From contig OX381709.1 of NCBI GenBank assembly GCA_947462335.1, positions 82,026,622 to 82,090,621 on the forward strand: a stretch of DNA of 64,000 nucleotides, read 5' to 3'. Below the pieces are notes generated by a model. It had not been told where the DNA came from. It worked only from the letters and a program-made list of their open reading frames with translations, and made no database searches. The stretch comes from Harmothoe impar. Lineage: Eukaryota > Annelida > Polychaeta > Phyllodocida > Polynoidae. Below are positions 41,272 to 59,866 of this stretch, piece by piece; the first letter of the stretch is position 1; every line of letters starts with the position of its first letter. A program made the position numbers and the translations under genes.

Positions 41272-41417
41272 TACAAAGTAGTTACAGCTCACTCAGTCCC
41301 TTATCTACAATACTAATGGACACCCCTGGTCTGTGGTGATTCCTAAAGAGTTTAATCACAGGATTGCAATTAAAGACCTAATTTGTTAAGCGGTAGTCTA
41401 TTTTAGTTCAGAGCATT

Positions 41418-41564
41418 CCCAGCTAGAAAAAAAAACGTTATTTTACGTCAAAATAACGTTCTAAAACTGTATATAACGTTATGCCATAGTTAGGAGCCTT
41501 AGAGAAACGTTATAACGTTAAATAACGTTACAAAATGTTGTATAACGTTTTTTGTTTACTGGGT
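41418..41564. mobile_element. AACGTTA-rich MITE, 147 bp, intact
   Basis: It begins CCCAGCTAGAAAAAAAAACG and ends TTTTTTGTTTACTGGG, with TT on both sides. The interior is a chain of TAACGTT palindromes. It is the reference for the interrupted copy at 27151-28478. Confidence 0.8.
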
Positions 41565-41938
41565 TGAATATATGTAAACCAAGATGATGTCCGAAAGGAG
41601 CGAAGGACATTGACAATTATATTTAAGGAGTGACAGAAGTTTTGCGTAGTTAACCTTGAATATTGTCTTCAACCATTGCTCCTGGTTTGCATTTGTAGAT
41701 CTGTTTTTGATTTACCCCGAAGATATTTGGGAGCAGGATGTTATATGGTTCATATGAGATGGCTCAGGGGTTCAAAATAGTCAAAGATCAATAGAGATGT
41801 ATTGCACTGGTCTAGAGGAATGTAAAAGCAATGACAGGGTCCTAAAGAGCCCAGTTGGTATGTGGGCAGTCCCTGTCTATAGTTAACTGGTGTGATAGGG
41901 CTCATAGGGACGAACTCACCAGGGTGCCTAGACACCTG

Positions 41939-42698
41939 CCCAGCTAACAACAAACGTTTTCCAAACGTTTGCAAACGTTTCCACATGGTTTGGAGGAAAA
42001 CGTTTGAAGCAAACTTTTGCAAACATTTTTCTGAAGTTTGCAAACAAATGTTTGAGAGAGACAAAGTGAGACAGATATATTATGTCTGTTGAGCTTATAA
42101 GATGCAATTTCAACTACATGGGACATATCGTGGTGCATCAATGGCACATTGGTTAATATTGTATGTTTGATTTGTGCATATTATATAGCATTGCAAATTC
42201 CATTTGTATGGATGTAGGCTCGGTGGCCTCATGGTCAGCATGCCTGCCTTCATATCCTATATTAACACATGGTGTAGGTTCGAATCCTGGTGTCAGCAGT
42301 TTTACAAATTGTTAATAAATTATAATAAAATTATAATCTTCTTTCCTTTTGAACAGGTTAGTCCAAATAGTTCATCAAGAGAGTTAGAAAGAGAGTCAGA
42401 AAGAGTCAATCTGGAGGTGAACCTGGACTCTCATCTAATCGTTTCTTTTCTCTATGTACCTATGAACTATGTTCAGAAACGTTTGCAGATCAGTTATGGC
42501 TATTTTGGTATGGTAAACACGTTAAACAAACGTGCATATAACGTTTTACACAAACGTTTGGCTGTAACGTTATCAAAACGGTATTTAGTGTCAACGTTTT
42601 CACGTTAAAAAAACGTTCTGTATAGGTTTTTGCAAACGTTTGCAAACCTTCTGCAAACGTTAAATCCTGGTAATGTAAACGTTATTTTGTTAGCTGGG
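41939..42698. mobile_element. AAACGTTTGC-rich element A with tRNA-like module
   Basis: The ends are CCCAGCTAACAACAAACG and ATTTTGTTAGCTGGG. The other duplication copy shows the site without it (GACACCGGGCTCC at 45781). The flanks TG/CG compared with GG in the empty site suggest a 2-bp duplication with mutations. The interior has dozens of AAACGTTTGC-type words at both ends and a tRNA-like segment in the middle. No transposase. Confidence 0.85.
42216..42297 (+). ncRNA. tRNA-like module inside element A
   Basis: A box TGGCCTCATGG (42224-42234) and a perfect B box GGTTCGAATCC (42277-42287) are 53 nt apart, the geometry of an internal Pol III promoter. A clean cloverleaf is not possible, so this is tRNA-derived (SINE-like), not a working tRNA. 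The same module sits in element B. Confidence 0.6.
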
Positions 42699-42969
42699 CG
42701 GCTCCTGCATAATCACAAAGCATGTGTACCCTGCATAATCTAAGAAGACATGGCAGCGTATGTACACAGTGACTTCAGTTGGAAGATTATGTTGGATGCA
42801 TGAATGGGTTATATGGATGTCTGCAAGACACCTTTGTCTTGGCACCTTGATGAATTGCTCCGTACGTGTCGTGTCAGGGGGCCGGTGATGGTGACCATGT
42901 TTTAGATTCTGGGACTCTAACCGACCCTGACTGCACTGATATTCCTAGGCTCCCTATACCCTAACCCTA

Positions 42970-43285
42970 TACAAAAATAAAAAAAAGGTGTGTTTCAGGT
43001 TACATGGTCTGAAAATCTAGGGTAGGTAGGTCGGATTTTTTTTTTTTTTCTTTTTTTAAATTTTTACTTTAGCCTGAAAAGTAGCTAGAAATCGACTCAC
43101 GAACTACAATGCCGACTCGCCGACGACGCCTCGACTCGTGAACTATCAGATCGACCCTTAAATAGCCCCAAAATGACCCGAAATATAAATATTTTTTCAA
43201 AATTGCATAAAAATGTCTAGGGTCGGCCCTGTTTTGCTAGGTAGGGTCGGGTAACCTGAAACACACCTTTTTTTTTATTTGGCCT
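42970..43285 (-). repeat. MITE, AGGCCAAA-ended family, copy 5
   Basis: In inverse orientation: GGTGTGTTTCAGGTTACATG at the left, and CCTGAAACACACC followed by a T-run and ATTTGGCCT at the right. A truncated CACTG MITE (from 42938) adjoins it. A flanking stretch of about 43 bp (GTGACCATGTTTTAGATTC and on) is present on both sides. Confidence 0.7.
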
Positions 43286-43594
43286 GGTGACCATGTTTTA
43301 GATTCTTGGACTCTAACCGACCCTGACTGCGTGTATGCATGCATACAGAACGGTGAGGCTGTGACAGGCCAGTCTGATGGAGTGTACCAGATCTCTGTAC
43401 TCAGGGATGTATAGCATCTGCCTATATACATAGCATAGCTGATTTTGAGGTTGACAAATGTAGCAAACCGTGTTTGACGTAATAAGCGCACATCCCCTAA
43501 TAAGCACACACCCTATTTTTGGGGTTGACTTTAGATCGTAAAACACATGTCTTCTTTGAGCCCAAATTTAACTTTTAGCTATTGGAAATGCGTA

Positions 43595-43764
43595 AGGGAG
43601 TGTTCATTTATTAATTACAGGGTGGGGTGGTGAGATTTTGTGTGGAGGTGCGAATTTTTTTTACGCCCCCCCCCCCTTGAGAGCGCGTGGAACGTTTCGT
43701 GCCCCCTCTCGCTGAAGGGGGCCAAACCCACCACCCCCCCTGTAACTAATGAATAATCACTCCT
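43595..43764. repeat. GGGAGTGTTCATTTATTA MITE, duplication copy 1
   Basis: AGGGAGTGTTCATTTATTAA and TTACAGGG at the left face CCCTGTAACTAATGAATAA and CACTCCT at the right, with TA beside both ends. Its counterpart in copy 2 (47078-47400) is longer by about 150 bp. Confidence 0.7.
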
Positions 43765-44159
43765 TAATAGAATACTTTGAAAGTGTGCTTGTCACATTAA
43801 ATACAGGACTGCAACAGTAAAATAATAATAAAAAAAGTTTTTTTATATCATACCTGTCAATGGGGCTGGCAAAGGCTGCCTATGGTCAGTCACTGGCTTC
43901 TTGGTAAGATCATCAAAGCCTGAATTCCCAAAGGCAGACCGAAAACTGAGTATAGCAGAAAAATAATTCAAACAAAAAAAAACAAGTCAGATCGGCCAGG
44001 CCTGCTTTATCAAATCATGTCACTGGAAACCAACCTTTATATTTTATTTGGCCTTGCATCAAAGAGACAGAGATGTTGTTGTATACTGCATTGCACTGAG
44101 GCACGGCACTGAGGCACGGAGAGGCAAAAAGTGAATGGAGATCAGCTCACATAGAGCAG

Positions 44160-44939
44160 CCCAGCGAACAACAAACGTTTTCCAAACGTTTGCAAATGTT
44201 TCTACATGGTTTGGAGGAAAACGTTTGAAGCAAACGTTTGCAAACGTTTTTCTGAAGTTTGCAAACAAACGTTTCAGAGAGACAAAGAGAGAGAGAGAGA
44301 GAGATAAAGAGAGAGAGAGAGATGATGTCTGTTGAGCTTATGAGATGCAATTTCAACTGAACATTGGGACATAACGTGGTGCATAGATGCACATTGGTTT
44401 ATATTGTGTTTGATAAATGTGTATTAGGCCTATATAGCATCGCAAATTCCATTTGTAGATATGTAGACTCGGTGGCCTCATGGTCAGCATGCCTGCCTTC
44501 GAATCCTATGTTAACACTAGTGTAGGTTCGAATCCTGGTGTGAGCAGTTTTATGACAAGTTAATAAATTATAATAAAATTATAATCTTCTTTCCTTTTGA
44601 ACAGGTTAGTCCAAACAATTAGTTAGAAAGAGAGTCAGAAAGAGTCATTCTGAAGGCAAACCTGCGTGGACTCACCTGATGGTTTCTTTTGTCTATGTAC
44701 CTATGAACTATGTTCAGAAACGTTTCCACATCACTTATGGCCATTTTGGTATGGTAAAAACGTTAAGCAAACGTGCATATAACGTTTTACACAAACGTTT
44801 GCCTGTAACGTTATTAAAACGTTATTTAGTGTCAACGTTTTTACGTTAAAAAAACGTTGTGTATAGGTTTTTGCAAACGTTTGCAAACCTTCTGCAAACG
44901 TTAAATCCTGGTAATGTAAACGTTTTTTTGTTAGCTGGG
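44160..44939. mobile_element. AAACGTTTGC-rich element B with tRNA-like module
   Basis: It is flanked by AG on both sides. The other duplication copy has the exact empty site CATAGAGCAGTTCCTGACC (47805 region) with a single AG, proving a 2-bp target duplication. Ends CCCAGCGAACAAC and TTGTTAGCTGGG. It is closely similar to element A but carries a (GA)n run near 44290. Confidence 0.9.
44465..44545 (+). ncRNA. tRNA-like module inside element B
   Basis: A box TGGCCTCATGG (44473-44483) and B box GGTTCGAATCC (44525-44535). Collinear with the module in element A. Confidence 0.6.
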
Positions 44940-45351
44940 AGTTCCTGACCAATACAGAGCAGAGCAGCAGACACAGAATGGCTCAGGCCAAAAAAGACGT
45001 GTGTGTTTCAGGCAGCCAAACCCCGGACAGATGATTTGCGAAGTTAACCTTGAATATTGTCTTCAACCATTGCTCTTGGTTTGCATTTGTAGATCTGTTA
45101 ACAAAACATACACACCCATGCAATCATCATATTCCCCACTACAAGAAAAAGAAAACCTATTCCTCTACTATTTGCAGATATTCAGCAGGAGTTTTGATTT
45201 ACCCCGAAGATACTTGGGAGCAGAATGTTATATGGTTTATATGAGATGGCTCAGGGGTTCAAAATAGTCAAGGATCAATAGAGATGTATTGCACTGGTCT
45301 AGAGGAATGTAAAAGCAATGACAGGGTCCTAAAGAGCCCAGTTGGTATGTG

Positions 45352-45712
45352 CACTGATATTCCTAGGCTCCCTATACGCCCAACCTCTCAGTCACTAGTG
45401 CCTAACCTAGTTTTTCATTTTTTGGCTACCTATACAACCAACCTAGGTCAGTTATTATTGTCAGGTTGGTCAGTACTGACCAACCCAGCTTAGTCTTTTT
45501 ATTTCCAGGGGGAGCCACTGAGTGGTCATGACAGGTGGCCCCAACTAGCGGTATACAAATACAACACACCAATGATGAACCTAGGTTAGCCACTACTGAC
45601 TGACCCCTCGGTCATTTTTGAATATAACTTTGCTATTATGACTAACACTCATATGACCAACCTAGGATAGTCTGTACTGACTATAACCCTTTCAATCTAT
45701 GGATTTTCAGTG
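45352..45712 (+). mobile_element. CACTG-ended MITE, 361 bp, copy 2
   Basis: Flanked by TG on both sides. The empty site GGTATGTGGGCAGTCC survives in the other duplication copy near 41862. Nearly identical to 40913-41271. Confidence 0.9.
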
Positions 45713-46032
45713 TGGGCAGTCCCTGTCTATAGTTAACTGGTGTGATAGGGCTCATAGGGACGAACTCACCAGGGTGCCTAGACACCGGGCTCCTGCATAA
45801 TCACAAAGCACGTGTACCCTGCATAATCTAAGAAGACATTGCAACGTATGTATACAGTGACTTCAGTTGGAAGATTATGTTGGAATGCTTGCAGGATATA
45901 TGGATGTCTGCAAGACACTTTTGTCCTGGCACCTTGATGAATTGCTCCGTACGTGTCGTGTCAGGGGGCCGGTGATGGTGACCATGTTTTAGATTCTGCG
46001 ACTCTAACCGACCCTGACTGCGTGTGTGCATG

Positions 46033-46470
46033 TGTAATAAACGATACTTTGTCCTTCATAATATTGTTATATTATTAAGTAAATAACCAAAGTCGACACA
46101 GTTTGGATCAAGTGTACAGGTTGCGAATCACAGGTTTATTCAGGAACCTAGACAGGCAAAGCTATATCAGTGTGAACTCCCTATAGAGTTTGGAGCGGGT
46201 TAGTAGGCTCGTAGCCAATACGATCACAGGGCCTCTGTCCTAGCGTGGATCCAGAGTGACCGACGAGTCCCATCGGATGCCGGCTATATATATAGGCAGC
46301 CAGCCTGCGCGCGCACACGCAGACCGGAAGCCTATAGCGACCTCTGTCCATACCCCAAGCCCGGGGCAGGTGCTGCCACCTGCCGTTGGGCTGAAGGGTT
46401 CGGACGGAGTTCGCAACACAGCATCCAACAGAACCCGTCATATAAACCCCATATAACCCTAGCCCCTACA
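46033..46470 (+). mobile_element. Solo LTR, 438 bp
   Basis: It begins TGTAATAAACG and ends GCCCCTACA, so it has TG...CA (TGTA...TACA) ends. It is flanked by CATG on both sides (46029-46032 and 46471-46474), a 4-bp target duplication. The other duplication copy lacks it (GTATGCATGCATACAG near 43335). A TATA box (CTATATATATAGG, about 46284) precedes a GC-rich start region, as in an LTR promoter. The internal retroelement region is gone, probably by LTR-LTR recombination. Orientation is taken from the TATA box. Confidence 0.85.
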
Positions 46471-46544
46471 CATGCATACAGAACGGTGAGGCCGTGACAG
46501 GCCTGTCTGATGGGGTATACCAGATCTCTGTACTGAGGGATGTA

Positions 46545-46892
46545 CACTGAAAATCCATAGATTGAAAGGGTTAGTCAGTACAGACTATCCTAGGTTGGTC
46601 ATATGAGTGTTCGTCATAATGGCAAAGTTATATTCAAAGATGACCGAGGGGTCAGTCAGTAATGGCGAACCTAGGTCCATCATTGGTGTGTTGTATTTGT
46701 ATACAACTAGTTGGGGCAACCTGTCATGACCACTCAGTGGCGCCCCCTGGAAATAAAAAGACTAAGGTGGGTTGGTCAGTTCTGACCAACCCGACAATAA
46801 TAACTGACCTAGGTTGGTCCAAAAAATGACTAACTAGGTTAGTCACTAGTGACTGAGAGGTTGGGCGTATAGGGAGCCTAGGAATATCAGTG
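46545..46892 (-). mobile_element. CACTG-ended MITE, 348 bp, copy 3 (inverted)
   Basis: It begins CACTGAAAATCC and ends GGAATATCAGTG, with TA on both sides. The empty site GGGATGTATAGCATCTG is in the other duplication copy near 43405. Confidence 0.9.
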
Positions 46893-47077
46893 TACAGCAT
46901 CTGCCTATATACATAGCATAGCTGATTTTGATGTTGACAAATGTAGCAAACCGTGTTCGAAATAATAAGCGCACATCCCCTAATAAGCACACACCCTATT
47001 TTTGGGGTTGACTTTAGATCGTAATACACATGTCTTCTTTGAGCCCAAATTTAACTTTTAGCTATTGAAAATGCGTA

Positions 47078-47400
47078 AGGGAGTGTTCATTTATTAATTA
47101 CAGGGTGGGGTGGTGAGATTTTGAGCGGAGTCGCGAAATTCTTTTACGCCCTCCCCCCCTTGAGAGCGCGTGGAACGTTTCGCGCCCCCTCTCGCTGAAG
47201 GGGACGAAAAAATTTTGCCCACCCCCCTTTTGAACTATAGTAACGCGCAGGCTTTTTTGCTAAAAAGGGGCTACATTTTTTACGCCCCCTCCCCTCAAGA
47301 GGGGGTAGAATTTTTCATTCCCCCCCTCAGGAGGGGTCGGAAATCTTTGCACCCCCCCCCAAACCCACCACCCCCCTGTAACTAATGAATAAACACTCCT
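47078..47400. repeat. GGGAGTGTTCATTTATTA MITE, duplication copy 2
   Basis: Same ends as 43595-43764, with additional interior that includes ACGCCCCCTCCCCTCAAGAG. Confidence 0.7.
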
Positions 47401-47983
47401 TAATAGAATACTTTGAAGGTGTGCTTGTCACATTAAATACAGGACTGCAACAGTAAAATAATAATAAAAAAAGTTTTTTAATATCATACCTGTCAATGGG
47501 GCTGGCAAAGGCTGCCTATGGTCAGTCACTGGCTTCTTGGTAAGATCACCAAAGCCTGAATTCCCAAAGGCAGACCGAAAACTGAGTATAGCAGAAAAAT
47601 AATTCAAACAAAAAAAAACAAGTCAGATCGGCCAGGCCTGCTTTATCAAACCATGTCACTGGAAACCAACCTTTATATTTTATTTGGCCTTGCATCAAAG
47701 AGACGGAGATGTTGTTGTATACTGCATTGCACTGAGGCACGGCGAGTTACAGCCATATGCTTTGAGTCCAGGAGAGGCAAAGAGTGAATAGAGATCAGCT
47801 CACATAGAGCAGTTCCTGACCAATACAGAGCAGAGCAGCAGACACAGAATGGCTCAGGCCTAAAAAGACGTGTGTGTTTCAGGCAGCCCAACCCTGTGGG
47901 GTGTTTCACAAGGAGAAAATAGATACAATTAATTTTACATGTTTTCTAAGACCAACTTGATATCACCCGATGTTAATCTTATC

Positions 47984-48067
47984 TTGGTGTTTCACAAGTT
48001 TCAATTGTATCTATGGTCATATACTTAGATACAATTGAAGATAATAATGCGGCTTGTGAAACACCAA
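47984..48067. repeat. Hairpin inside the outer transposon
   Basis: TTGGTGTTTCACAAG and its exact inverse CTTGTGAAACACCAA bound an 84-bp foldback, with TCAATTGTATCTA/TAGATACAATTGA nested inside. The GTTTCACAAG end motif equals that of the outer element, so this may be a MITE of the same family inserted into its relative. Confidence 0.75.
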
Positions 48068-48360
48068 CATAAGACTAACATTTGGTAAAAGTAAGTCAAC
48101 CTTAATTAATCTTAAATACGGCCCCTTGTATGATGATCACATAGGATCAACATAAGTGTTGTTTAAATGTGTATAACCAGTTTATTTTCATCCTGAATAA
48201 ACAGATATTTTCAGGGATTCTTGTGTGTAGTATGACACATATATTGCATGAAAAAAACGTGAAAAAATATGTATGGAAAATATTAGCGAGCATGGTATGA
48301 GCTCCACGCTAATATGCATTGTGAAACACTTATACATTACTTGTATCTAGATTGTAGGCC

Positions 48361-48442
48361 AGTAGTATAGTATGTATCGGAACGGGACTATAGTTAAGTA
48401 CTGTTTATTACTCAATCGACATGCAGCCAATCAGAGGCCTCC
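48361..48442 (+). repeat. Left terminal inverted repeat, 82 bp
   Basis: It matches the complement of 58141-58222 at 80 of 82 positions; the mismatches are at positions 9 and 61. Its inner part contains GCCAATCAG, an NF-Y-type CCAAT box. Confidence 0.93.
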
Positions 48443-48810
48443 ATTTGACCGGAAGTGACGTCACATGCCCATATAAGGGCATACCGGAAGTGACGTCACG
48501 TGACCTTGACCTAGTTAGAGGTCAAGGTCATGACTCAGCCAATCAGAGGCTTCCATTTGACCGGAAGTGACGTCACACGCCCATATAAGGGCATACCGGA
48601 AGTGACGTCATGTGACGTCACACGCCCATATAAGGGCATACCGGAAGTGACGTCATGTGACCTTCACATGTACATATAAGGGCATACCGGAAGTGACGTC
48701 AAGTGACTTTGACTTAGTTAGAGGCTTCTGATTGGCTGGTACACCGGAAGTGACCCATTTATGCAAATGAGGGGCCTACTTCTGGTCAAATGGAGACCTC
48801 TGATTGGTTG
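48443..48810 (+). promoter_or_regulatory. Left subterminal array of ETS-CRE sites
   Basis: The 15-mer CCGGAAGTGACGTCA, an ETS site fused to a full CRE, occurs six times (48449, 48484, 48561, 48596, 48641, 48687), with a seventh TGACGTCA at 48613. Between them CCATATAAGGGCAT (or CATATAAGGGCAT) is repeated four times, offering TATA-like boxes. Further in come GATTGGCTG CCAAT boxes and an octamer ATGCAAAT at 48761. It looks like an enhancer or promoter array. Whether it drives transcription or also serves replication is not shown. Confidence 0.7.
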
Positions 48811-49125
48811 GGTCATGAAGAAATGTGTCTCTTAATTTAATTTTGTTTAGGAAGTGATCGATTTTAGGATCACGCGACCGGAAGTGACCTGATGAGTCAC
48901 GTGACTAGAAGTGACGACGACACATACCTTAATTAGACGATTCAGCAGCGACCGGAGGAAGTGTCACTTTAAGAGGACACGCTAGTTAATTGTTATAATT
49001 GTTTTACTTACTAATAAAAGAAGACGTATGAAAATAAACACAACAATAATTTTATTTTATTTTTTTATTTTCTTTTTTTTTCAATTCTAATAACACTCTA
49101 TTTTTGAAAAGATGCGCTCAATCAA

Positions 49126-49305
49126 TCAATAACACACTTTTTCATATTTTAAAGGACTCGTTGTCACACCGTTAGAATGCACGCGACGCTTATAATACAA
49201 GTAGCGCACGTCATCTTTCTCTATGGTGTAAGTGGCCATTTTTGGTTCGTACCACTTTTGAAATTTATATTTACCGCAAGGAGAGTTTTTCGTTTTCGAA
49301 AACAT
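49126..49305 (-). CDS. Small 59-residue frame of unknown function
   Basis: The minus-strand frame begins MFSKTKNSPCGKYKF, contains TIEKDDVRYLYYKRR, and ends at TGA. Its composition (Lys, Tyr, Asp) is protein-like and it is followed by AATAAA-type signals at about 49050 on the same strand. It may be the last part of a decayed Polinton gene or a real small gene. I cannot name it. Confidence 0.3.
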   Translation of the reverse strand: MFSKTKNSPCGKYKFQKWYEPKMATYTIEKDDVRYLYYKRRVHSNGVTTSPLKYEKVCY

Positions 49306-49469
49306 TTAAGAAGACGACTACTTCTGTACACTTTTTTTGAGATTTTCTTTCACTGGTGCCGCTGATTTGATCGTAGCAAATGTAAGTCTTAGGGTTGACA
49401 CTTGGGATCCCGTCACCTTCTCACGCCGCTTTCTTTTCTTTCTGAAGTATGTCTCTCTCAGGCGAGGTT

Positions 49470-49870
49470 TGACTACACACAGGCAAACATCAGAGGCACC
49501 CAATAGCGCTAATTCTACCTTCAGACAAAGGTCAGGCACGGCTGGCCTATAATAGATGGGTCAAGGGCTATTCTAGTGAGGGTCAGGCTGCGCCGGACAT
49601 TCAATAAAAAGCTGGAGTTTGGCAAACTTGCTTTTGAAAGTCTGACCATGCGGGATCCTCATGCCATAGTCTGACAATGCTGAACTCTTGGGAGAGTATG
49701 CCGGACTCTTGCTGGCCAGACTTTCAAGCAAATTTGCCAAAGTCCAGCTTGTTATTGAATTTCCGGCGTAGCCTGACCCTCAGTAGAATAGTCCTTGACT
49801 CATCTATTATAGGTCAGCAGCGCCTGACCCTTGTATGAGAGTAGTATTGGCGACATTGGCCGACTCTGAT
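49470..49870. repeat. Local palindrome at the left arm's outer edge
   Basis: CTATAATAGATGGGTCAAGG (49548) and its inverse near 49795, with GCCGGACATTCAATAA and the inverse TTATTGAATTTCCGGC, fold on a centre near 49680. A third copy of the sequence lies at the end of the right arm (57490-57594). Amplification of this segment may reflect a recombination hotspot. Confidence 0.75.
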
Positions 49871-50066
49871 ATTTACCCGTGTGTACGGCGGGAGGAGGGG
49901 GTTCACAGCCACTGCTTGCGCTTATAGAGCGCTACTAGCGGAGGTCTGGATGAGGAGACTACGGCGTTTGTCTTTTGCTTGTGCAGCTGCTGCTGCTGCT
50001 GCTGACGATGTCACGGATGCCGCTATTACTAATGCTACTAATACTAGTATGAGAAAATACATTTAG

Positions 50067-50849
50067 TCAATTGATTAAATCAAGGAGGTTTTCTGACTTC
50101 AGTGGATCGTTTAGCCATCGGCCACGGGCAAAACTTGAAACCATTTTATACATGGGACAATTGGCAGAGTCGAAACGTGTTGGTACCATAGGGTCGATCA
50201 TGTTCATCATCAGTTCAGGCAAAGGAAGTGTGTCGACAGCACGCGAAAACTTCATGTCTGAATGTTTCAACACAAGACTTTTTATCACACTCACACAGCT
50301 GCTTTGAAGAGTGAATCCTTGACCAAACTTGTGCTTTTCCAACACAGCTTTGGCCTCTTTCTGTGCAGTAAGGGATCTCTCTTTCGGGTTCATCTCAGTG
50401 CTGTCTAGCATGTCCTCAAAGTCTTTAACATAATGTTCCAACGGACTACAAATGATGGACTCCAGATCATCGTCCGCATATGTCGTCTCCTCGCACCATA
50501 TTGTGTCTTCGCCTGTTTCGAATTCCGTCATTTTCCTGACAATCTCCTCCTGAGTGCCTTGCATATATCGAAGCTCCTTCAAGGAGTTGATAACTTGTAT
50601 GGCGAAGACTGACAAACTTGAAGGAATTTCACCACAGTCAGGCCAAGTATACGGAGCTAAGAAAAATAGCTCTAACAAAATCTTCTCCCTCTGTCCAAAT
50701 GAAACTACTGTTCCGATGAAGTTGAAGCATGCTTCTATCCATTGCTCTTTGGTGACGTCCTTCCAATGTTTCTTTACCTCACATGCATCATAGGGCACCG
50801 TTTCTCTTCTTGCTTCAAGTGGGAGTTGCTTTTTCTTTCTTGGACTCAT
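50067..50849 (-). CDS. Polinton-cargo protein of unknown function, paralogue 1
   Basis: 260 residues, starting MSPRKKKQLPLEARRE. I chose this ATG because the frames of the two copies agree from here on and disagree upstream, although this copy stays open for a further 118 codons. The N terminus is basic (possible nuclear signal PRKKKQ). The rest is predicted mostly helical, with an acidic centre (TTYADDDLE) and the conserved stretches AVDTLPLPELMMNMIDP and WLNDPLKSENLLDL. About 88% of residues match the copy at 55915. Length differences are whole codons. No known family recognised; it is not an obvious Bcl-2 or capsid protein. It is transcribed toward the left end, behind an upstream region shared by both copies with a TATA-like GTACATAAG. 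Confidence 0.85.
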   Translation of the reverse strand: MSPRKKKQLPLEARRETVPYDACEVKKHWKDVTKEQWIEACFNFIGTVVSFGQREKILLELFFLAPYTWPDCGEIPSSLSVFAIQVINSLKELRYMQGTQEEIVRKMTEFETGEDTIWCEETTYADDDLESIICSPLEHYVKDFEDMLDSTEMNPKERSLTAQKEAKAVLEKHKFGQGFTLQSSCVSVIKSLVLKHSDMKFSRAVDTLPLPELMMNMIDPMVPTRFDSANCPMYKMVSSFARGRWLNDPLKSENLLDLIN

Positions 50850-50959
50850 TTCGAGAGGGTTTCGATGCTCTGTAGCGTCAACACTTTCATAAACAAAGAA
50901 AATAGCAGAACTAACCATCGTAACGTGCTGAGCGAGCGTAGAGTGGACGATGCTACGAA

Positions 50960-51030
50960 GATGAAGGGCGGGTGGAGAAAGTGTGACTGGTGACAGCGGC
51001 GTTTCACTCCTTATGTACCCTGTCCTAGAT
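50960..51030 (-). promoter_or_regulatory. TATA-like promoter of paralogue 1
   Basis: The minus strand has GGGTACATAAGGAGTGAAAC about 165 bp before the chosen ATG. In the right copy the same motif (55741-55752) is followed after about 22 nt by TCACTCATCAC. The death-domain gene shows the same layout: TATATAAG, then about 22-25 nt, then TCACTCA. Confidence 0.5.
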
Positions 51031-51203
51031 AAGCCTCTTAAACGGCTGAAAAGACTCTCTAAGTACAGAGCTTCTACCGCAGGTGGGTTTAGACTTAAGC
51101 AGCTTAGTTCACACACATGTCTGTTAGAAAAAGCTACTTGCACACGCGCCTTCCTTTTTTCACTAGTATTCACCCTCTGCCGACTTATAAGACACCTATA
51201 CAC

Positions 51204-52180
51204 TCTTTCTCGTGAAATCTATGGAAGATGATGGAAGGACCACTGACTACATTTTCTTTGATCAGAGCGTGGAGGACGGCGTCGAACGGAGGGAACGTTG
51301 TGAACACAGCTTATAGGGTTTTTGGAAGAGGTCTTGTAAAGTCAAACTGGCGAGAGAGATGGCGTCTTTCAACATGACAATGCTGCTATGTTGGAAAAAA
51401 ATAGCGTGATTTTTTCAAAAAGCTTCTATGAAAGATTTGACGTCTTCGTTGTTGTAGTGGATCAAGTAATCTGTCATAGTTTGCTTCTTCTTGTCATACT
51501 AAACTTTCTGACATGTGGCGTAGTCGGATTTCGGCCATTTTGACGCCCGTCAGTTCGCTGTCAAAAGTCGATCTCGGTGGCAGGGGTTTTTTGTTTACTA
51601 GTTTCTTGGTATACGTCATCCATTCGTAAGTAAAGCAACCTTTCTCTTCGTTTGTAGTGAAAGCTCGCAAATAATTCGCGTAGCTGTAACCAAGTGCTAA
51701 AAAAGTTGACTACTACGTCAACTATTGATTGCTTTTCTTTATGACGCTGAATTGTTGGTTTCTTCGGTCTCCGGAGGCAAATAACGAGTGAAGGCGTATT
51801 TTTTGATCAGGTTCAAGTCGTAACTCTCCGAGTTGAAGCGTACGACTGGAGCTTGACGGATGTATCTCAGAAGCCGCTTCTTCAGTTGAACTAACGGTTG
51901 TCTGGTGTGAGCTGCAGCGAAGCCGCCTGGAGAAGGGGTGAATGTCGCTTCCTCTAGCAGGAGAGCTTCACCTATCGCTACATGTAACTTCGCTAAGGTT
52001 GGTCGGTAAACTTCTAGCACAGCTTTCTCGATGACTTTGGCGTTCTCGTTTATGTGATTTTAAACTCGGTCTAACAAGGGGTCGGAATCTGCGTCGGATT
52101 CTCTGACGTACGCTGCCCCTCCTACCCCGGAAAGTCGTATGCGACGCTAGCCGACATCGCTGCATAGAGGGCAAAACTTA
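51204..52180 (-). pseudogene. polB: Decayed protein-primed DNA polymerase B, exonuclease region
   Basis: Polintons replicate with a protein-primed family B polymerase. Here, fragments of its N-terminal half appear in correct order on the minus strand but in different frames. An exonuclease-type segment has RFNSESYDLNLI (near 51805-51840). A conserved YEWM segment lies near 51610. YNNEDVKSF near 51450 corresponds to the WYNN-DV motif of the family. GPSIIFHRFHE near 51210-51240 lies close to the polymerase domain. At least three frameshifts or stops interrupt it. It is cut at 51204 by the inverted-duplication arm, so fingers, palm and thumb are missing. It cannot make a polymerase; it is a fossil marker of the element's ancestry. 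Confidence 0.85.
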
Positions 52181-52436
52181 GGTATCGTTCTTCATTTTTC
52201 TACGGGTCGCTCGTGATTGTACGGTCTTTTAAAAATTTTGAAACACTTTTCGCAAACGTCCTGCGGCATGTTTTTCTTTTTTTTGTTTTTTTCACTTATT
52301 TACCAAATATTAAAAAAATAAACGTTGTTTATCACTTCGAATACTAGACGCCTCTTACCACACGATGCTATTAGCATAGTGAAAGACGTCTGTAGTGTAG
52401 GATCGATTTCAACAGATGTCCATCTTACTGCAGGGA

Positions 52437-54014
52437 TCAGACGAGAGTCGTCAACACTGGTGTGTCACAGCTCACTTTTATTTCTTTGGGTACAGCTGCA
52501 TACAACCCTTGAACATACATTGCGACGTCGCCGCGTCCCATGTAGTCTTCCAACACTTTCATCAGAGCCATAGGCTCAGACGTCTCGTTGTACTTCCAAG
52601 CTTTCAGCACTTCATAGACAGGGTTCTTCACAGTCCTGTCAGAAGGCACAGGTTGAGAGATGGAAGTTACTTCATGAGAAGTCAACCCTAAGTAGATCCC
52701 TATGGTCTTCCAGTCTCTAGGGCAGAGCTCAGCTAAAAGAGAGAAATATTTCTGCACTTTCCACTCCATGTCTCCACTCTCTAAGCCATCCCACATGTCA
52801 TGCTTGTCCATGTACTCACGTGAGAATTTGATGAGGTCCATACGGTAAGATTCTTCCAAGGCGGCGGCTAGGTCCTTCCACCTACTAGTACAACTTTTCT
52901 GGTACCAAGTAGTGAACATTTCTCTAGCTTGAGTTATGACACTTGTCTCACAACTGAGATATCCCATATCCTTCAAGTTCACTTCAAGGAATGAACCTAA
53001 CCGTATGTAATCTGATGTCGGCAACTTACCGCTTATTTTCAGTAGCATAGCGTCTGACAAGTATCCTAACGGCTCTGCTTTGAAGTATGATGATACAGGT
53101 ACTACTGCAGCAGAACCAATAACAGGAGCAGCGTCTGCGCTGGTATCAGACGACTCGTTGTCGGAACAGGGCAACCACATGACTTCGTAAGGTATTGGTG
53201 AGGGCAGTCGCCACGGACCGGACGCACTACCAGTGGAAATGAGGTCGAAAAACGGACTGTGCGCCCGTGACCCTTCGGGTTCCTCGTACGCCTCGTCGTC
53301 AGCGTCGTTCTCTGTTTCACCCTGTTGCTTTAGGACATGTATGTCTACTACGCGCTGCTGGGGCTGAGTGTCCGAATAGCTGTAAGTCTCAGCGCGAGCA
53401 GCGTTGATGGCGTCGGTTGATGAAGCGGTGGAGAGGTTCTGTGCAACGTACTGCGTGTCAGTACTAGTAGCGGTAGTCGCAGCAAGAGGTGTAGCAGCAG
53501 CAGCAGTAGCAGCAGCAGCAGGAGCAGCAGCAGCAGCAGCAGCAGGAGCAAGCGCAGCGCTAGCAAGTGCAGCAGTAGCAGGCGCAGCAGTAGCAGGCAC
53601 AGCAGCAGCAGGCACAGCCGCCTCAGCAAGCGCAGCAGTAACAGGCGCGGCAGCAGCAGCAGCAGCAGCAGCAGCAGGCACAGCAGTAACAGGCGCGGCA
53701 GCAGCAACAGCAGCAGCAGCAGCAGTAGCAGCAGCACTAGCAGCACGAGGATCACTAGCAGCCGCAGCAGGCGCAGCAGTAGCAGCAGCAGCGTGCTCAG
53801 CAGCAACAACCGTCGCGAGTGTAACAACGTCGCTACTACTGCTGTGTGCGCTCGCTACAGCGGGAGGGTGATAAGACCAAGCGGTTGCGGCGGTAGTCTC
53901 AATTTCAGTAGCAAGAGGAGACGCTGACAGTAAACGATCACCGTTCTGCGTATTCTTCTTGTTGTTGAACTCGATTAGATCCTTGGACGACAGTAGTTGT
54001 TGTGTTTTGCTCAT
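52437..54014 (-). CDS. Tandem death-domain protein with poly-Ala region (Polinton cargo)
   Basis: 525 residues from ATG at 54014 (context CACCACCATGA); an in-frame ATG eight codons upstream is possible but has a weaker context. Layout: a short polar N terminus; an Ala-rich tract (about residues 75-190, encoded by GCA/GCT-type repeats); an acidic, Ser-rich linker; then two helical modules. Module 1 (about 325-415) has LLKISGKLPTSDYIRLGSFL and FTTWYQKS and RWKDLAAALEE, a death-domain pattern. Module 2 (about 430-510) has CPRDWKTIGIYLGLTSHEV, VLKAWKYNE and LEDYMGRGDVA, a better match. Death domains mediate homotypic assembly in apoptosis and innate immune signalling. No caspase, kinase or membrane segment is seen, so it may act as an adaptor or decoy. 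A TATA box stands about 60 bp upstream. Confidence 0.8.
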   Translation of the reverse strand: MSKTQQLLSSKDLIEFNNKKNTQNGDRLLSASPLATEIETTAATAWSYHPPAVASAHSSSSDVVTLATVVAAEHAAAATAAPAAAASDPRAASAAATAAAAAVAAAAPVTAVPAAAAAAAAAAPVTAALAEAAVPAAAVPATAAPATAALASAALAPAAAAAAAPAAAATAAAATPLAATTATSTDTQYVAQNLSTASSTDAINAARAETYSYSDTQPQQRVVDIHVLKQQGETENDADDEAYEEPEGSRAHSPFFDLISTGSASGPWRLPSPIPYEVMWLPCSDNESSDTSADAAPVIGSAAVVPVSSYFKAEPLGYLSDAMLLKISGKLPTSDYIRLGSFLEVNLKDMGYLSCETSVITQAREMFTTWYQKSCTSRWKDLAAALEESYRMDLIKFSREYMDKHDMWDGLESGDMEWKVQKYFSLLAELCPRDWKTIGIYLGLTSHEVTSISQPVPSDRTVKNPVYEVLKAWKYNETSEPMALMKVLEDYMGRGDVAMYVQGLYAAVPKEIKVSCDTPVLTTLV

Positions 54015-54044
54015 GGTGGTGCCTGTAGAGAGCAGCAAAAGACT

Positions 54045-54085
54045 GAGTGAGTGAACGGGTGTTTCCAGGCCTCTTATATACGCCT
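54045..54085 (-). promoter_or_regulatory. TATA promoter of the death-domain gene
   Basis: The minus strand reads GCGTATATAAGAGGCC, then about 25 nt later TTCACTCACTCAGTC, then the ATG about 30 nt on. That gives a short leader without the need for an intron. TCTCTACAG just before the ATG resembles a splice acceptor, so a 5' intron is the alternative. Confidence 0.65.
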
Positions 54086-54096
54086 TCTCGCTTCTA

Positions 54097-54480
54097 GAGC
54101 TAAGCTACTTACAGCTCTCTTCAGCTGCCGCCGGCTGACCGGTGACCATTCACAAAGAGAAACAAAAAGTCATAAGGTATGACGTTTTCAGCTGGATCCC
54201 TTTCCCCCGCCCCTTTGAGAGATCGACTGACACGAGCTAAGCTACTTACTGCCTTGTTCAGCAATTCAACGTGCGTTAGCTGTATAAAGGATTAAGCAGT
54301 TGCTGCCGCCAGCTGACCGGCGGACATTCCCAAAGAGAAACAAAAGACATAAGTCATGACGTTTTCAGCTGGATCTCTTTCCCCCCTCCCTCTTTTTTTT
54401 TGAGAGATGGACTGCCATGAGCGGGCGGTGTACCGACTGTACTAATTCAACGCGCATTAGCTGTATAAAGGATTAAGCAG
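54097..54480 (+). repeat. Tandem subunits upstream of the death-domain gene
   Basis: Two diverged units share GAGCTAAGCTACTTAC, GCTGACCGG, AAAGAGAAACAAAA, TGACGTTTTCAGCTGGATC and CTTTCCCCC. TGTATAAAGGATTAAGCAG occurs twice (54281, 54462) and could be a plus-strand TATA box. Probably the divergent control region. Confidence 0.65.
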
Positions 54481-54636
54481 TCATGAGCTTAGAGTGTGTA
54501 TACAAAAAAACTACAGGAGGCGTGTAGTGTGAAGCAGGACCCCCTAAGACGGGAGTGTCTGTCTGTGAGTAGAGTCGTGTGCATGTGGTGAGCGACTTAA
54601 GTGTAAAACAAAAAAAAATCACCGCCTCCTGCCGTG

Positions 54637-55196
54637 GTGAGTAGACTGGCCGGCGGCGGCCGGCTAGTTCAATAGGGGTGACAGCTGACTAAGGCTGTGC
54701 ATGAAAATCCGATTTTCACCTGACTTCTGACGTTTGTTACAATGAATGCCAAAGGGGGAGAGAGTTGTCCTCAGGTAGGGGGTAGGAGGTAAGGCTAATG
54801 GATAAGGAAAAAAAACACCATTTTCAGCTGGCCACCACAGATGGCGATGACATACCCCTCGGCATCTAAGCTCTTAAGAAGCTCTTACGGAGCGGAGCGG
54901 CTGCTGGACAGCTGGGGTGAGTAGACCGGCCGGCGGCGGCTAGCTAGTTCAATAGGAGTGACAGCTGACTAAGGCTGTGCATGAAAATCAGATTTTCACC
55001 TGACCTCTGACGTTTGTTACAATGAATGCTAAAGGGGGAGAGAGTCGTCCTCAGGTAGGGAGTAGGAGGTAAGGCTAATGGATAAAGAAAAAACACCATT
55101 TTCAGCTGGCCACCAAAGATGATGATGACACGCCCCTCGTCATCTAAGCTCTTAAGAAGCTCTTACGGAGCAGAGCGGCTGCTGGACAGCTGGGGT
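54637..55196 (+). repeat. Tandem duplication, ~277-bp unit, two copies
   Basis: Each unit begins GTGAGTAGAC(T/C)GGCCGGCGGC and includes GTGACAGCTGACTAAGGCTG, CACCTGAC and GGGGGAGAGAG, and ends GCTGCTGGACAGCTGGGG. Closely similar copies. No coding frame is shared by both. Confidence 0.85.
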
Positions 55197-55914
55197 GCTG
55201 TTGGAAATAGGATTAAACTCCCTCTGTATAAAAGCTCTGATTTCTGTTGGAAAAAAACCATATCACCTTTGACCACAGTAACGTCTACTACCACCACCAC
55301 CAGCACCACCGCCGCTGCCACCGCCGCTGCCGCCGCCAGTCACAGCTGATCACCTCATTAAAAGCATGTGACGTCGTCGCTTCTAGTCACTTGCTTCATC
55401 AAGTCGCTTCCAGGCACGTGATCTTAAAGACCCTCACTTCTTAAACAAAAAAAACGAAGAGACACGCTTCTTCCTCTCGAGAGGAAGAATGACGTATATA
55501 AGGAGGCTGACACGTGTATAGGTGCCTTATTAGTCGGCAAGGGGTAAATACTAGTGAAAAAGGAAGGCAGGTGTGCAGGTAGCTTTCTAACAGACACGTG
55601 TGTGCACTAAGCTGCTTAAGTCTAAACCCCCCTGCAGTAGTCAAGTAGCATGTGAAAACTTACTTAACAGATCACTTAATTGAGTAGAGACTCTGTACTG
55701 AGAGAGTCTTTTCAGCTGTTTAAGAGGATTATCTAGGACAGGGTACATAAGGAGTGAAACGCTGCTCTCACTCATCACACTTTCTCGACTCGCCCTTCAT
55801 CATCGTAGCATCGTCCACTCCACGCTCGCTCAGCATGTTATGAGGGTTATTTCTACCTTTACAGCTTCTTTTCTTATCGAAGTGTCGACGCTACAGAGCA
55901 TCGAAACTCTCCAA

Positions 55915-56697
55915 ATGAGTCCAAGAAAGAAAAAGCAACTCCCACTAGAAGCAAGAAGAGAAACAGTGCCCTATGATGCATGTGAGGTAAAGAAACATTG
56001 GAAGGACGTCACCAAGGAGCAATGGATAGAAGCATGCTTCAACTTCATCGGAACGGAAGTAGTTTCATTTGGACAGAGGGAGAAAATTTTGTTGGAGCTA
56101 TTTTTCTTAGCTCCGTATAGTTGGCGTGACTGTAGTGGTGAAATTCCTTCAGGTTTTTCAGCGTTCGGCATACAAGTTATCTGGTCTTTGAAGAAGCTTC
56201 GATATATGCAACGCACTCACGAGGAGATTGTTCAGAAAATGACGGAATTCGAAACAAAAGAAGTATGGTGCGAGGAGACGACATATGCGGACGATGATCT
56301 GGAGTACATCATTTGTAGCCCGTTGGAACATTATGTTAAAGACTTTGAGGACATGCTAGCCAGCACTGCGATGACCCCGAAAGAGAGATCCCTTACTGCA
56401 CAGAAGGAGGCCAAAGCTGTGTTGGAAAAGCTCAAGTTTGGTCAAGGATTCACTCTTCAAAGCAGCTGTGTGAGTGTGATAAAAAGTGTTGTGTTGAAAC
56501 ATCCGGACATGAAGTTTTCGCGTGCTGTCGACACACTTCCTTTGCCTGAACTGATGATGAACATGATCGACCCCATCGTACCAACATGTTTCGACTCTGC
56601 CAATTGTCCCATGTATAAAATGGTTTCAAGTTTTGCCTGTGGCCGATGGCTAAACGATCCACTGAAGTCAGAAAACCTCCTTGATTTAGTCGACTGA
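55915..56697 (+). CDS. Polinton-cargo protein of unknown function, paralogue 2
   Basis: 260 residues, same length as the copy at 50067, starting MSPRKKKQLPLEARRE and ending NLLDLVD. Compared with its twin it has whole-codon insertions (TEVV for TVV, DCSGE for DCGE) and a compensating two-codon shortening (ETKEV for ETGEDTI). No internal stop occurs in either. That pattern suggests selection on the protein after duplication. It is transcribed outward, toward the right end. The function is unknown: basic start, helical body, acidic centre, conserved C terminus. Confidence 0.87.
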   Translation: MSPRKKKQLPLEARRETVPYDACEVKKHWKDVTKEQWIEACFNFIGTEVVSFGQREKILLELFFLAPYSWRDCSGEIPSGFSAFGIQVIWSLKKLRYMQRTHEEIVQKMTEFETKEVWCEETTYADDDLEYIICSPLEHYVKDFEDMLASTAMTPKERSLTAQKEAKAVLEKLKFGQGFTLQSSCVSVIKSVVLKHPDMKFSRAVDTLPLPELMMNMIDPIVPTCFDSANCPMYKMVSSFACGRWLNDPLKSENLLDLVD

Positions 56698-56764
56698 CTA
56701 AATGTATTTTCTCATACTAGTATTAGTAGCATTAGTAATAGCGGCTACTCGGTCTCGTGCAGCA

Positions 56765-57070
56765 TCCGTGACATCGTCAGCAGCAGCAGCACGATCAGCA
56801 CAAGCAGCAGCTGCTGCAGCAGCTGCACAAGCAGCACAAGCAGCACAAGCAGCAGCATCTGTCAGCAGCATCCGTGACATCGTCAGCAGCAGCAGCAGCA
56901 GCAGCTGCTGCACGAGTAGCACAAGCAGCAGCATCTGTCAACAGCATCCGTGACATCGTCAGCAACTGCAGCAGCTGCACGAGCAGTACAAGCAGCAGCA
57001 GCTGTCAGCAGCTGCAGCAGCTGCACGAGCAGCACAAGCAGCAGCACCGACAGCAGCAGCAACAGCAAAT

Positions 57071-57111
<41 letters not shown>

Positions 57112-57115
57112 GCAA
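56765..57115 (+). repeat. GCA-rich tandem block after paralogue 2
   Basis: The unit GCATCCGTGACATCGTCAGC followed by a variable run of AGC/GCA repeats occurs three times (about 56763, 56866, 56944), ending in a pure (CAG)n run of about 14 units. The left arm has only one unit (about 49984-50020). The block lies 3' of the stop codon. Its open frames are low-complexity artefacts. Confidence 0.85.
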
Positions 57116-57899
57116 TGTGGACCGCTAAATTCGAGATGGTGACATATCTGTTTCTTAGAATCGACATTCGACATGAGGTCTAGTGACATTTGACATGAAG
57201 CTTGAAAAACATAGTGACAGGTGACATGAGCAATTCTTAAAATCGACACGAGATATGAGCATAATTAAGCGACATCGACATGTGCCATGGCTATTTTTTA
57301 TTTTTTTTGAAGACAACCGCCATAGCTTCCTTATCCAGACCTCCACTAGTAGTGCTCTATAAGCGCAAGCTTTGCCTTAAGAGAGCTGTGGCTGTGAACC
57401 CTCTCCTCTCTCCGTACACACAGGTAAATATCAGAGTCAGCCAATGTCGCCAATACTACTCTCATACAAGGGTCAGGCGCTGCTAGACTATAATAGATGG
57501 GTCAAGGACTGTTCTACTGAGGGTCAGGCTAGGCCGGACATTCAATAACGGGCTGGACTTTAGCAAATTTGCTTGAAAGTCTAGCCAGCAAGAGATGCAC
57601 ATCATCATAAACGCGATCATGATACCTTTCATTGTAAGTAGACTCGCCTCTCTGCCCTCTCTTTTAGAGAGGGCAGAGAAGCGAGTCTCACTCTTAAAAA
57701 ACCCTTCCCCTCCCCCCCTCCCCCCCTCCCCCCCCCCATGCATCTTAAAGAGTGCCCCCCAGAGTGCCCCTCCCCCCCTAGAAAAAAAGAGCCGTATTTT
57801 TAAATTATTTTTTAGCAAGCTTTCAGCTTGCTTTTTTTTTCTTTTTTTAAATTTATTTATCCATCAAAATCTCAAGTGACTTATTTTGAAAGCCAACCT

Positions 57900-58140
57900 A
57901 GTAGTCACGTGACCCCCTTAAGTAGGTCACTTCCCGTCACGTGACCTATTTGAATTTCCCGCCAACATGGTGGTCACGTGACCCTCTTAAGTAGGTCACT
58001 TCCGGTCACGTGACCTATTTGAATTTCCCGCCCAAAGGTCACGTGACCGGAAGTAGGTCACTTCCGGTCACGTGACCTATTTGAATTTCCCGCCAAAAGG
58101 GAGGCCTCTCATTGGCTGCTTTTGAATTTCCCGCCAAAAG
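57900..58140. promoter_or_regulatory. Right subterminal array of E-box and E2F-like sites
   Basis: The palindromic E-box GTCACGTGAC occurs six times and the E2F-type site TTTCCCGCC four times (57955, 58024, 58086, 58127), in units of about 65 bp with CCGGTCACGTGACCTATTTG. CCAAT boxes (ATTGGCTG) lie next to the terminal repeat. ETS-type CCGGAAGT occurs once. E2F, CCAAT and E-box sites together are typical of S-phase promoters in animals. Confidence 0.65.
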
Positions 58141-58222
58141 GGAGGCCTCTGATTGGCTGCAGGTCGATTGAGTAATAAACAGTACTTAACTATAGTCCCG
58201 TTCCGATACATACAATACTACT
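58141..58222 (-). repeat. Right terminal inverted repeat, 82 bp
   Basis: Partner of 48361-48442. The words CCTCTGATTGGCTG and CCAATCAGAGGC recur in the subterminal arrays next to both repeats. Confidence 0.93.
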
Positions 58223-58400
58223 TAGGCCAAAGACCCTGACTTAACATCTTGGTTGTAGACCTTTGTGAAACACTTTTTATAAGCAGTATACAATTGATAC
58301 AACCAAATGTCGGTCTTAGTGGTTATATACAATTAACACCTCCTATAGAAACACTTATTCTACAACTAATTGTATGTCCCCCTTGTGAAACATCCCACTG

Positions 58401-58893
58401 GACAGATATTTTGTCTTTCAGTATCTTCTTGGCATTGCATTGAAAAACATCATGTGTAATAAGATTTCGCAACAAAAACAACCCTAGATTCATAAAATTA
58501 GCATCTATTTCCTGTTTATAAGAATTATTGTTTTTATATATTTTTTATCTTGTTGTAAAATGTTCATATTCTTCGAGATTTAAGCTTTTTTACTGGCTGG
58601 GGATAATAATCTCCCATGCCTGACTAATTGGCTGATCTCAGGAAACTACTTTTTAACAAAAACATCCAACAATTTCATGATATATCTAATTACTGTAAGA
58701 AGCAGTGGCCCACTGGCCAATGTGGAAATTCGCTACTCATTCCAGTCACCTTCAACCTTAAAAAAAGAAAGATTCGACCTAGCTACCTATCTTTTGGACC
58801 ATGTTGCCTGAAACACACCATTTCTAAGCCTCAGTAGATGATTGGCTGCTTTGGAGGCACACAGCCTCCTGCCGGACGGTGGTACACATCTAG

Positions 58894-58929
<36 letters not shown>

Positions 58930-59866
58930 TGGGATCAAGCATCAAAGCAGCCAATAATAGTCCAGCATTGCCAGACTGGAATACAGGCCTTTCATTCCAG
59001 AGTCTACAAATGTTGGATTCCTTCAGCCATCAAACAGGGTGAGGCAAAGCTCTGGAAAGAGAATGCAGTATTGTCAGACTAACTCTGAAAATGTCTTTCC
59101 TCTGAACAAGGCTGAACTCTCCCTCTAGAGTCTGCAGAGAGTAGTTATGGCGATACTCTCACCTCTTTTATATGTAGTAGTTATAGGACGAGTACCGAGA
59201 TGTACACGAAATACAGTGAAGCGAGCCTTATACAACTAGCTGTATGCAGTATACAAGAGGTGTGACATGCCTTGTTCTCTGTGCTCGCTGTGCTATAAGT
59301 GATGTTTACACAAACGTTCACAACAGGTGAATGGAACCAACCACAGTACACTACTGTACAACCAACATCATGCACACACAAGGCAAGGTATGGGGGTATA
59401 TATAACTTATTAGCCAAACATCACAGTACAATTAAGGTACGAAGAACTCTGCGTTTATTGGAATTGCCTAAGTGTTGTAATTTAGATAAGGTCAAATATC
59501 AAAACATTTAGATATTTCTTGCTGAAAACGCTAGAAATCTCTGTGGTTTACAATATTGCATAGAGGTGGGCAAATGTTAAAATATAGGCAATAAGGGTGG
59601 AATAAGCAACGGTGGGCCCTTGCCACTTGGAACAGCAAGACCTTGCAGAAGTTTCAGGCCCATAAATCCTACTGTAAAGCTTGGCTATTCCGCACTAGCT
59701 GGATGTCCACTGGACAGCGCCATATTGGACTGGTCCCAGTATGCACCCTCTCCCTTCCAGTCACTAGCTTCAGCAAATCATGTGGACCAGATAAGGGGGC
59801 TAAAGCTCTGCTTGGAGAGTGGAACTACTACATTCCCTGCATGCTAGGACACCTGCAATTTTTTAC
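58401..59866. other. Right flank of the nested insertion, no gene seen
   Basis: GGACAGAT next to 58401 continues the site where the outer transposon landed. An AGGCC-family remnant lies at about 58750-58825 (CCTGAAACACACC) and a (GT)n run at 58897-58928. No splice-supported frame. Confidence 0.5.
58897..58928 (+). repeat. (GT)n microsatellite
   Basis: About 15 uninterrupted GT units. Confidence 0.9.

Follow-up and report, generated by a model that had tools for sequence, protein, structure and literature searches.

Maverick/Polinton-like elements in the annelid Harmothoe impar seem to carry replication and integration/capsid genes on separate elements with common ends

In this study we describe an element of 9,862 bp at positions 48361-58222 of a 64,000-nucleotide stretch of DNA from the polychaete annelid Harmothoe impar (GenBank assembly GCA_947462335.1, contig OX381709.1, positions 82,026,622 to 82,090,621 of the forward strand; this whole stretch is called the window). 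The element is probably a defective, mosaic member of a Maverick/Polinton family whose genes are distributed among elements of about 9-10.5 kb that have their ends in common. The explanation of the family that we favor, with a probability of roughly 0.55, is a multipartite Maverick, in which the replication module and the integration/capsid module live and move as separate integrated elements of about 10 kb, with about 7,000 copies in the genome, accompanied by recombinant and palindromic defective members, and with death-domain genes on the polymerase-bearing class and on one defective class. The central observation is that the two gene sets were found together in none of the 22 copies that we compared; judged from these sequences, replication and integration/capsid genes seem to reside on separate elements with the same ends.

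Results

The comparison covered the window element, 20 copies shorter than 10 kb from the first 2.7 Mb of contig C1 and the interior of one copy of 10.5 kb (L051). By mutual coverage the 20 copies fall into class A (two copies, to which the window element is added), class B (seven), class C (one), class D1 (four) and class D2 (six), and L051 represents class M. When ten proteins of classes M, B and C were searched against the 22 copies by tblastn, no copy contained both gene sets (0/22). The class-M proteins matched only L051, the class-B proteins matched the seven B copies and, over part of their length, the three A copies, the class-C protein matched the C and A copies, and the ten D1 and D2 copies gave no match to any of the ten proteins. 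An RVE integrase is present in L051 and had no match in the 21 other copies. Classes A, C, D1 and D2 carry neither the replication set nor the integration/capsid set. A sequence-only reading of the window had proposed a search for a full-length relative with polymerase, integrase and capsid genes together, and neither such a relative nor a full Polinton was found among the 22 copies. With the gene sets on different elements, the likely helper is a pair.

The classes are connected by their ends. The first 50 bases of the left end of the window element are 98-100% identical in the nine A-D copies compared, and identity drops to 77-82% over 130 bases, except in L041, where it is 100%. The end loci of class M hold the end pattern by construction, and 128 bp at 89.8% identity are common to classes M and B. 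Both ends belonged to one class in all four end pairs whose own copies lay outside the comparison (three M and one D1), the agreement in the other ten pairs being trivial because their copies were in it.

A 33-base end pattern, with up to 3 mismatches allowed, occurs in the window only at the two ends of the element (0 expected, 100 shuffles). In the 1.51-Gb genome it occurs 7217 times in the forward and 7252 times in the reverse direction, against 0 and 0 for a backwards control, and these 14,469 end matches answer the earlier suggestion that other copies with the same ends be sought. If each element has two ends, they would correspond by arithmetic to about 7,200 elements and, at about 9.6 kb each, to about 69 Mb or 4.6% of the genome. 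Pairing was done on the first 100 end matches listed, all on contig C1, and yielded 45 adjacent +/- pairs and 10 unpaired ends. The span is 8,697-10,537 bp in 43 of the 45 pairs; the other two, at C1:3921638-3934882 and C1:4267525-4283450, span 13,245 and 15,926 bp and are either nested insertions or longer elements. Exact 6-bp duplications flank 12 of the 14 end pairs examined, the other two matching at 5/6 and 3/6 positions. These 12 duplications are all different from one another, for which reason an assembly artefact was rejected. An ancient single relic was rejected as well, because the compared copies differ little and the observed/expected CpG ratio is 0.79 inside the window element and 0.37-0.41 in the remaining window, a difference that fits a recent arrival. 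The window element thus belongs to a young, very abundant family of virus-like elements and is not a lone relic.

Class-B elements are about 9.5 kb in length and encode a DNA polymerase B (PolB), a PC4-like protein and a tandem death-domain protein of their own. The polymerase has 1372-1375 amino acids (aa) in a single frame in five of the seven copies and is broken in L038 and L045. In L031 its 1375-aa frame matches PF03175 at 3.7e-7, and this gene (L031:673-4800) also has a Vsr-endonuclease-like stretch at about residues 866-942. The PC4-like protein has 523-531 aa, and its C-terminus in L031 resembles PC4 at 1.2e-4, with a score of 21.9 bits that is below the cut-off of 25. The death-domain protein has 246-312 aa and matches PF00531 at 9.1e-8 in L031. 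The copy L040:1-8967 is the only one of the seven without a terminal inverted repeat of at least 80 bp, and both of its ends carry the 33-base pattern. The ratio of nonsynonymous to synonymous substitution rates (dN/dS), taken from pairs that are not independent of one another, is 0.19-0.29 for PolB in all ten pairs of the five single-frame copies (L038 and L045 left out) and 0.20-1.16 for the PC4-like protein in 21 pairs. For the death-domain protein it is 0-0.57 in 17 of 21 pairs, with dS zero and the ratio undefined in the other four, and 13 of the 17 defined values lie at 0.22-0.34. These ratios suggest that the class-B genes are mostly under purifying selection, the sign being clear for the polymerase. 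Class B bears PolB and has a tandem death-domain gene as well, so death domains are not a cargo that sets a satellite apart; on this point the first reading needs correction.

A marker for the class-B PolB was found 1606+1591 times genome-wide, with 0 in the control. In the stretch of C1 common to the marker and end lists, 11 of 13 markers lie inside a paired element of 8,967-9,747 bp and two lie beside an unpaired end. The first 100 class-B markers listed on C1, which reach to 105 of its 124 Mb, crowd toward the chromosome ends, with 51 in 0-20 Mb, 9 in 40-60 Mb, 4 in 60-80 Mb and 8 in 100-105 Mb.

Class-M elements are about 10.5 kb in length (spans 10,446-10,537 bp). The L051 frames described here lie on one strand, and their lengths are given from stop to stop. 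A 399-aa frame encodes an RVE integrase (PF00665, 3.5e-13) with a weak chromodomain match (0.0019). A 244-aa frame resembles packaging ATPases, with Adeno_IVa2 at 1.6e-5, above cut-off, and an RNA_helicase P-loop model that also passes its cut-off, and a 263-aa frame resembles adenain-type proteases, with Peptidase_C5 at 3.7e-4, 0.6 bits under cut-off. Further open frames have 404, 147 and 439 aa. From gene order and inspection by eye we take the 439-aa and 404-aa proteins to be the probable major and minor capsid proteins, an assignment that no library confirmed. Among the 14 end pairs, 4 match the flanks of L051, with 93-100% identity across about 1.2 kb on either side; one of these is L051 itself and three are independent. 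The RVE integrase of L051 and the PolB of class B, together with the ends and the 6-bp duplications, bear out the assignment to the Maverick/Polinton lineage that had been made for the window element.

The remaining classes are of diverse build. The class-C copy (L035:1-8934) is a near palindrome; inverted repeats make up 99% of its 8.9 kb, and each arm holds an orphan open reading frame (ORF) of 288 aa. Class D2 (L037, L039, L042, L044, L047 and L050) measures 9.3-9.7 kb with terminal repeats of 0.7 kb and has no Met-initiated frame of at least 120 aa in any of its six copies, so that its members are seemingly non-coding passengers. Class D1 (L033, L043, L046 and L049) has a frame of 366-466 aa in three copies and shorter frames in L049; the frame is 42-47% alanine in the three measured copies, and its first 57 residues and a 22-residue patch are alike at 86-98% between copies.

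The borders of the window element were described correctly from sequence alone as regards the exact 6-bp target duplication and the AG ends (TAGGCC on both sides, AGTAGT/ACTACT); its terminal inverted repeats exist, with a measured length of 86 bp instead of the 82 bp given. Its interior is a mosaic of classes B, C and D2 (Table 1). The exact junctions are uncertain because the class-C-like stretches are in part similar to L037 as well, mostly at 70-84% and at 94% over 250 bp. The two class-C-like stretches contain the arms of an inner inverted repeat of 1.3 kb.

The fossil protein-primed polymerase recognized in the first reading is indeed present: seven related elements have a polymerase gene to which its pieces are 84.5-85.9% identical at the DNA level. 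About 1.2 kb is gone after its start, as is everything beyond the middle piece. On their own, none of the five pieces matched Pfam and one was without a PDB match, so that the proposed profile check failed for the fragments and their identity rests on the DNA match to the class-B PolB. Frames, DNA comparison and tblastn agree that the window copy has no intact polymerase, integrase or capsid genes of its own. It has thus lost its replication and capsid machinery, as had been claimed, and is not an autonomous member. The same truncated polymerase is carried by the other class-A copies, L034 (99.8%) and L041 (98.4% with 3 gaps), and class A therefore multiplied after losing its polymerase. Mobilization of the element in trans, in the manner of a satellite, accordingly holds in outline, by inference from this shared truncation and from the thousands of copies with the same end.

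Three intact frames remain, as first reported, namely one for a tandem death-domain protein and two copies of an orphan ORF. From stop to stop the death-domain frame (52437-54104, minus strand) has 555 aa and matches PF00531 in two stretches at 1.4e-10, with 41.6 bits vs a Pfam cut-off of 22.6. The profile check proposed for it was positive for the whole frame and for the second domain when cut out; the first domain by itself stays below cut-off (Table 1). The frame exceeds the longest frame (273 aa) in 200 order-1 Markov elements, a control that ignores a CAG-rich repeat inside it. When 1664 candidates were compared with the death-domain half (residues 280-555), none proved to be a relative at E 1e-3. 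The window protein is 58-59% identical to the class-B PC4-like protein over residues 1-51 and 186-303 and 25% identical to the class-B death-domain protein over residues 320-501 (E 2.5e-8), and its gene looks like a fusion of the N-terminus of the PC4-like protein with a death-domain unit of class-B type. The frame is open in all three class-A copies, and the three pairs, with 1 to 20 differences each, have dN/dS values of 0.00, 0.48 and 0.55, a weak sign of purifying selection.

The two orphan-ORF copies lie in inverted orientation and are 90% identical over 261 aa from a shared Met. In the protein collection 13 relatives of the ORF were found, the most distant at 37% identity, no confident match to its family was found in Pfam or PDB, and its AlphaFold model is poor (mean pLDDT 41). 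Two of the relatives, P0005 and P0006, both have a longest contig of 91,410 bases, which may be a single contig carrying two copies. Among IMG/VR viral contigs there was no relative of the orphan ORF, a polymerase piece, the death-domain protein or the end sequence, nor of the class-B PolB or the class-M 439-aa protein.

Two further features of the window were noted. A second AGTAGT...ACTACT pair with identical flanking 6-mers (41277-59355) surrounds the element and may be due to chance, 128 pairs having been tested. Outside the element, positions 2778-4115 hold a glutamine-rich open frame of 445 aa with tandem repeats and no Pfam match.

Table 1. Features of the window element and its flanks, in window positions
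Feature	Position	Strand	Evidence or remark
Left target-site duplication TAGGCC	48355..48360		sequence read
Left terminal inverted repeat, AGTAGT start	48361..48446	+	86 bp, 97% complementarity
Subterminal tandem array, 45-bp unit x 3.1	48567..48707
Stretch matching class B	49006..49433		79% to L031
Class-C-like stretch	49474..51203		85-90% to L035; from 49976 left arm of inner inverted repeat
Orphan 261-aa ORF, left copy	50067..50852	-	283 aa from earlier Met
Dead truncated protein-primed DNA polymerase B, 5' start joined to middle piece	51207..52278	-	84.8-85.2% DNA identity to L031 PolB
Tandem death-domain protein, 525 aa, Ala-rich N-terminal half	52437..54014	-	PF00531 match
Second death domain	52512..52751	-	PF00531, 6.6e-7 when cut out
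First death domain	52815..53039	-	E 0.0011 when cut out, below Pfam cut-off
Stretch matching class B, includes 5' part of PC4-like gene	53185..55337		75-81% to L031, short break 54883-54915
Class-C-like stretch with right arm of inner inverted repeat	55474..57594		89-90% to L035
Orphan 261-aa ORF, right copy	55912..56697	+	285 aa from earlier Met
Right end	57594..58222		97.8% to class D2 L037
Subterminal tandem array, 69-bp unit x 3.1	57892..58096
Right terminal inverted repeat, ACTACT end	58137..58222	-	86 bp, 97% complementarity
Right target-site duplication TAGGCC	58223..58228		sequence read

Discussion

How could a Maverick be maintained in two parts? We propose that the common end of about 80 bp may be the origin recognized by the protein-primed polymerase of class B, acting in trans for all classes, that the class-M integrase would join element ends to host DNA and so give the 6-bp duplications, and that the class-M capsid would limit element size to about 10.5 kb. 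Should copying, packaging and insertion take place in trans for every class, B and M would amount to the two parts of a multipartite virus, with A, C, D1 and D2 in the role of satellites or defective genomes. Recombination between classes would have given rise to the window element. Strand switching during end-to-end protein-primed copying is a feature of adenovirus biology, and a similar event here would produce both the palindrome of L035 and the inner inverted repeat of the window element. The death-domain proteins of class B and, as a fusion, of the window element probably engage host death-domain signaling and may thereby alter cell death or innate signaling during element replication.

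Several points weigh against a multipartite Maverick. Every copy that was read comes from the first 2.7 Mb of C1, and 20 of the 21 were picked for a span below 10 kb. The gene content of class M comes from a single interior, L051, minus the outermost 300 bp at each end, and the three other class-M pairs are known from their end sequence. The 439-aa and 404-aa frames of L051 had no confident match in Pfam or PHROGs, and the former no significant match in PDB. Either of the two long end pairs (2/45) could be a monolithic element. As for selection, the class-A death-domain figure derives from few changes in three pairs, dN/dS of the PC4-like protein exceeds 1 in 1 of 21 pairs, and between the two orphan-ORF copies of the window it is about 0.48, 0.75 and 0.64 by three methods.

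The most serious alternative is a conventional, monolithic Maverick, present or past, that has the same ends and from which all six classes (A, B, C, D1, D2 and M) would derive as non-autonomous deletion forms, complementary halves having been lost in B and M. We regard this as possible and distinctly less probable than the multipartite reading. The 13.2- and 15.9-kb pairs would suit such an element, as would vertebrate Mavericks, which are single elements of 12.7-24.6 kb (PMC8097293), and class A is plainly a product of deletion and recombination. However, the replication set of class B is under purifying selection and, by its marker, present in thousands of copies, the integrase, ATPase, protease and other long frames stay open in the single class-M copy read, the sizes of the elements are narrow and not scattered, and none of the 22 copies has both sets.

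It is unlikely, in our judgment, that class A is a death-domain satellite of a separate full Polinton or adintovirus and persists by virtue of its death-domain gene. Class A has the common ends and no intact mobility gene among those sought, and its death-domain frame is open in 3/3 copies, as such a satellite would have it. However, the death-domain gene of class B speaks against a satellite-specific cargo, and D1 (4/20) and D2 (6/20), which had no match to the death-domain gene, indicate that amplification does not depend on it. That the family is nothing more than a burst of non-autonomous transposons with functionless passenger genes, which the frameless D2 copies and the dN/dS weakly below 1 between the orphan-ORF copies might recall, is very improbable in view of the 13 relatives of the orphan ORF and of dN/dS mostly well below 1 for the PolB, PC4-like and class-B death-domain proteins.

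A multipartite Maverick would differ from its nearest known counterparts in several ways. In virophage/helper systems, mobile elements depend on the machinery of another element; in contrast, the two putative helper elements here have the same ends as their dependents and apparently belong to one family with them. Adintoviruses (Eupolintoviridae), which have single genomes, resemble our elements in PolB and in a retrovirus-like integrase with a chromodomain. Their definition rests on a PolB with an OTU-like N-terminus and a hexon recognizable by BLASTp (PMC11071296), and the word "death" is absent from that paper. In the vertebrate Mavericks, the commonest end motif is (AGT)2//(ACT)2 with 6-bp duplications, and intact elements unite both modules (PMC8097293); in both PMC8097293 and PMC4028283, Mavericks/Polintons are described as single elements. 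Our family shares with Mavericks the end motif, 6-bp target duplication, terminal inverted repeats, protein-primed PolB, RVE integrase, packaging ATPase and adenain-type protease; unlike in vertebrate Mavericks, the modules lie on separate elements of about 9.5 and 10.5 kb with shared ends and with defective classes alongside, and all core genes in one element were found in 0/22 copies.

Bidnaviridae, as outlined in PMC11071308, are linear single-stranded DNA viruses that descend from insect parvovirids and have a Polinton-derived PolB, and the title of a reference cited there terms the genome of the silkworm bidnavirus bipartite. A Polinton-derived PolB and the bipartite genome of the silkworm member are points of likeness, and integrated DNA, Maverick ends, an integrase and an adenovirus-type protease set our elements apart. 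Like a multipartite virus, the family has its polymerase on one nucleic acid and its integrase on another, both with the common ends, as known here from integrated DNA and from one class-M interior. In the library searched, no paper joined Polintons with death domains, and a search for adintoviruses with apoptosis gave only a birnavirus paper. No title or abstract opening among the matches listed describes a split Maverick, which is not proof of absence, as most subscription papers lay outside the search.

If the multipartite reading is true, this family, divided into complementary halves and present in thousands of young copies, would illustrate how a multipartite DNA virus can originate within a genome and be maintained there. 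It would then lend itself, as a natural system, to tests of replication in trans, of size limits in packaging and of how defective members arise. Moreover, the purifying selection seen on a death-domain gene next to the polymerase points to interference with host cell-death or innate signaling as part of the core life cycle of these elements, and not as incidental cargo.

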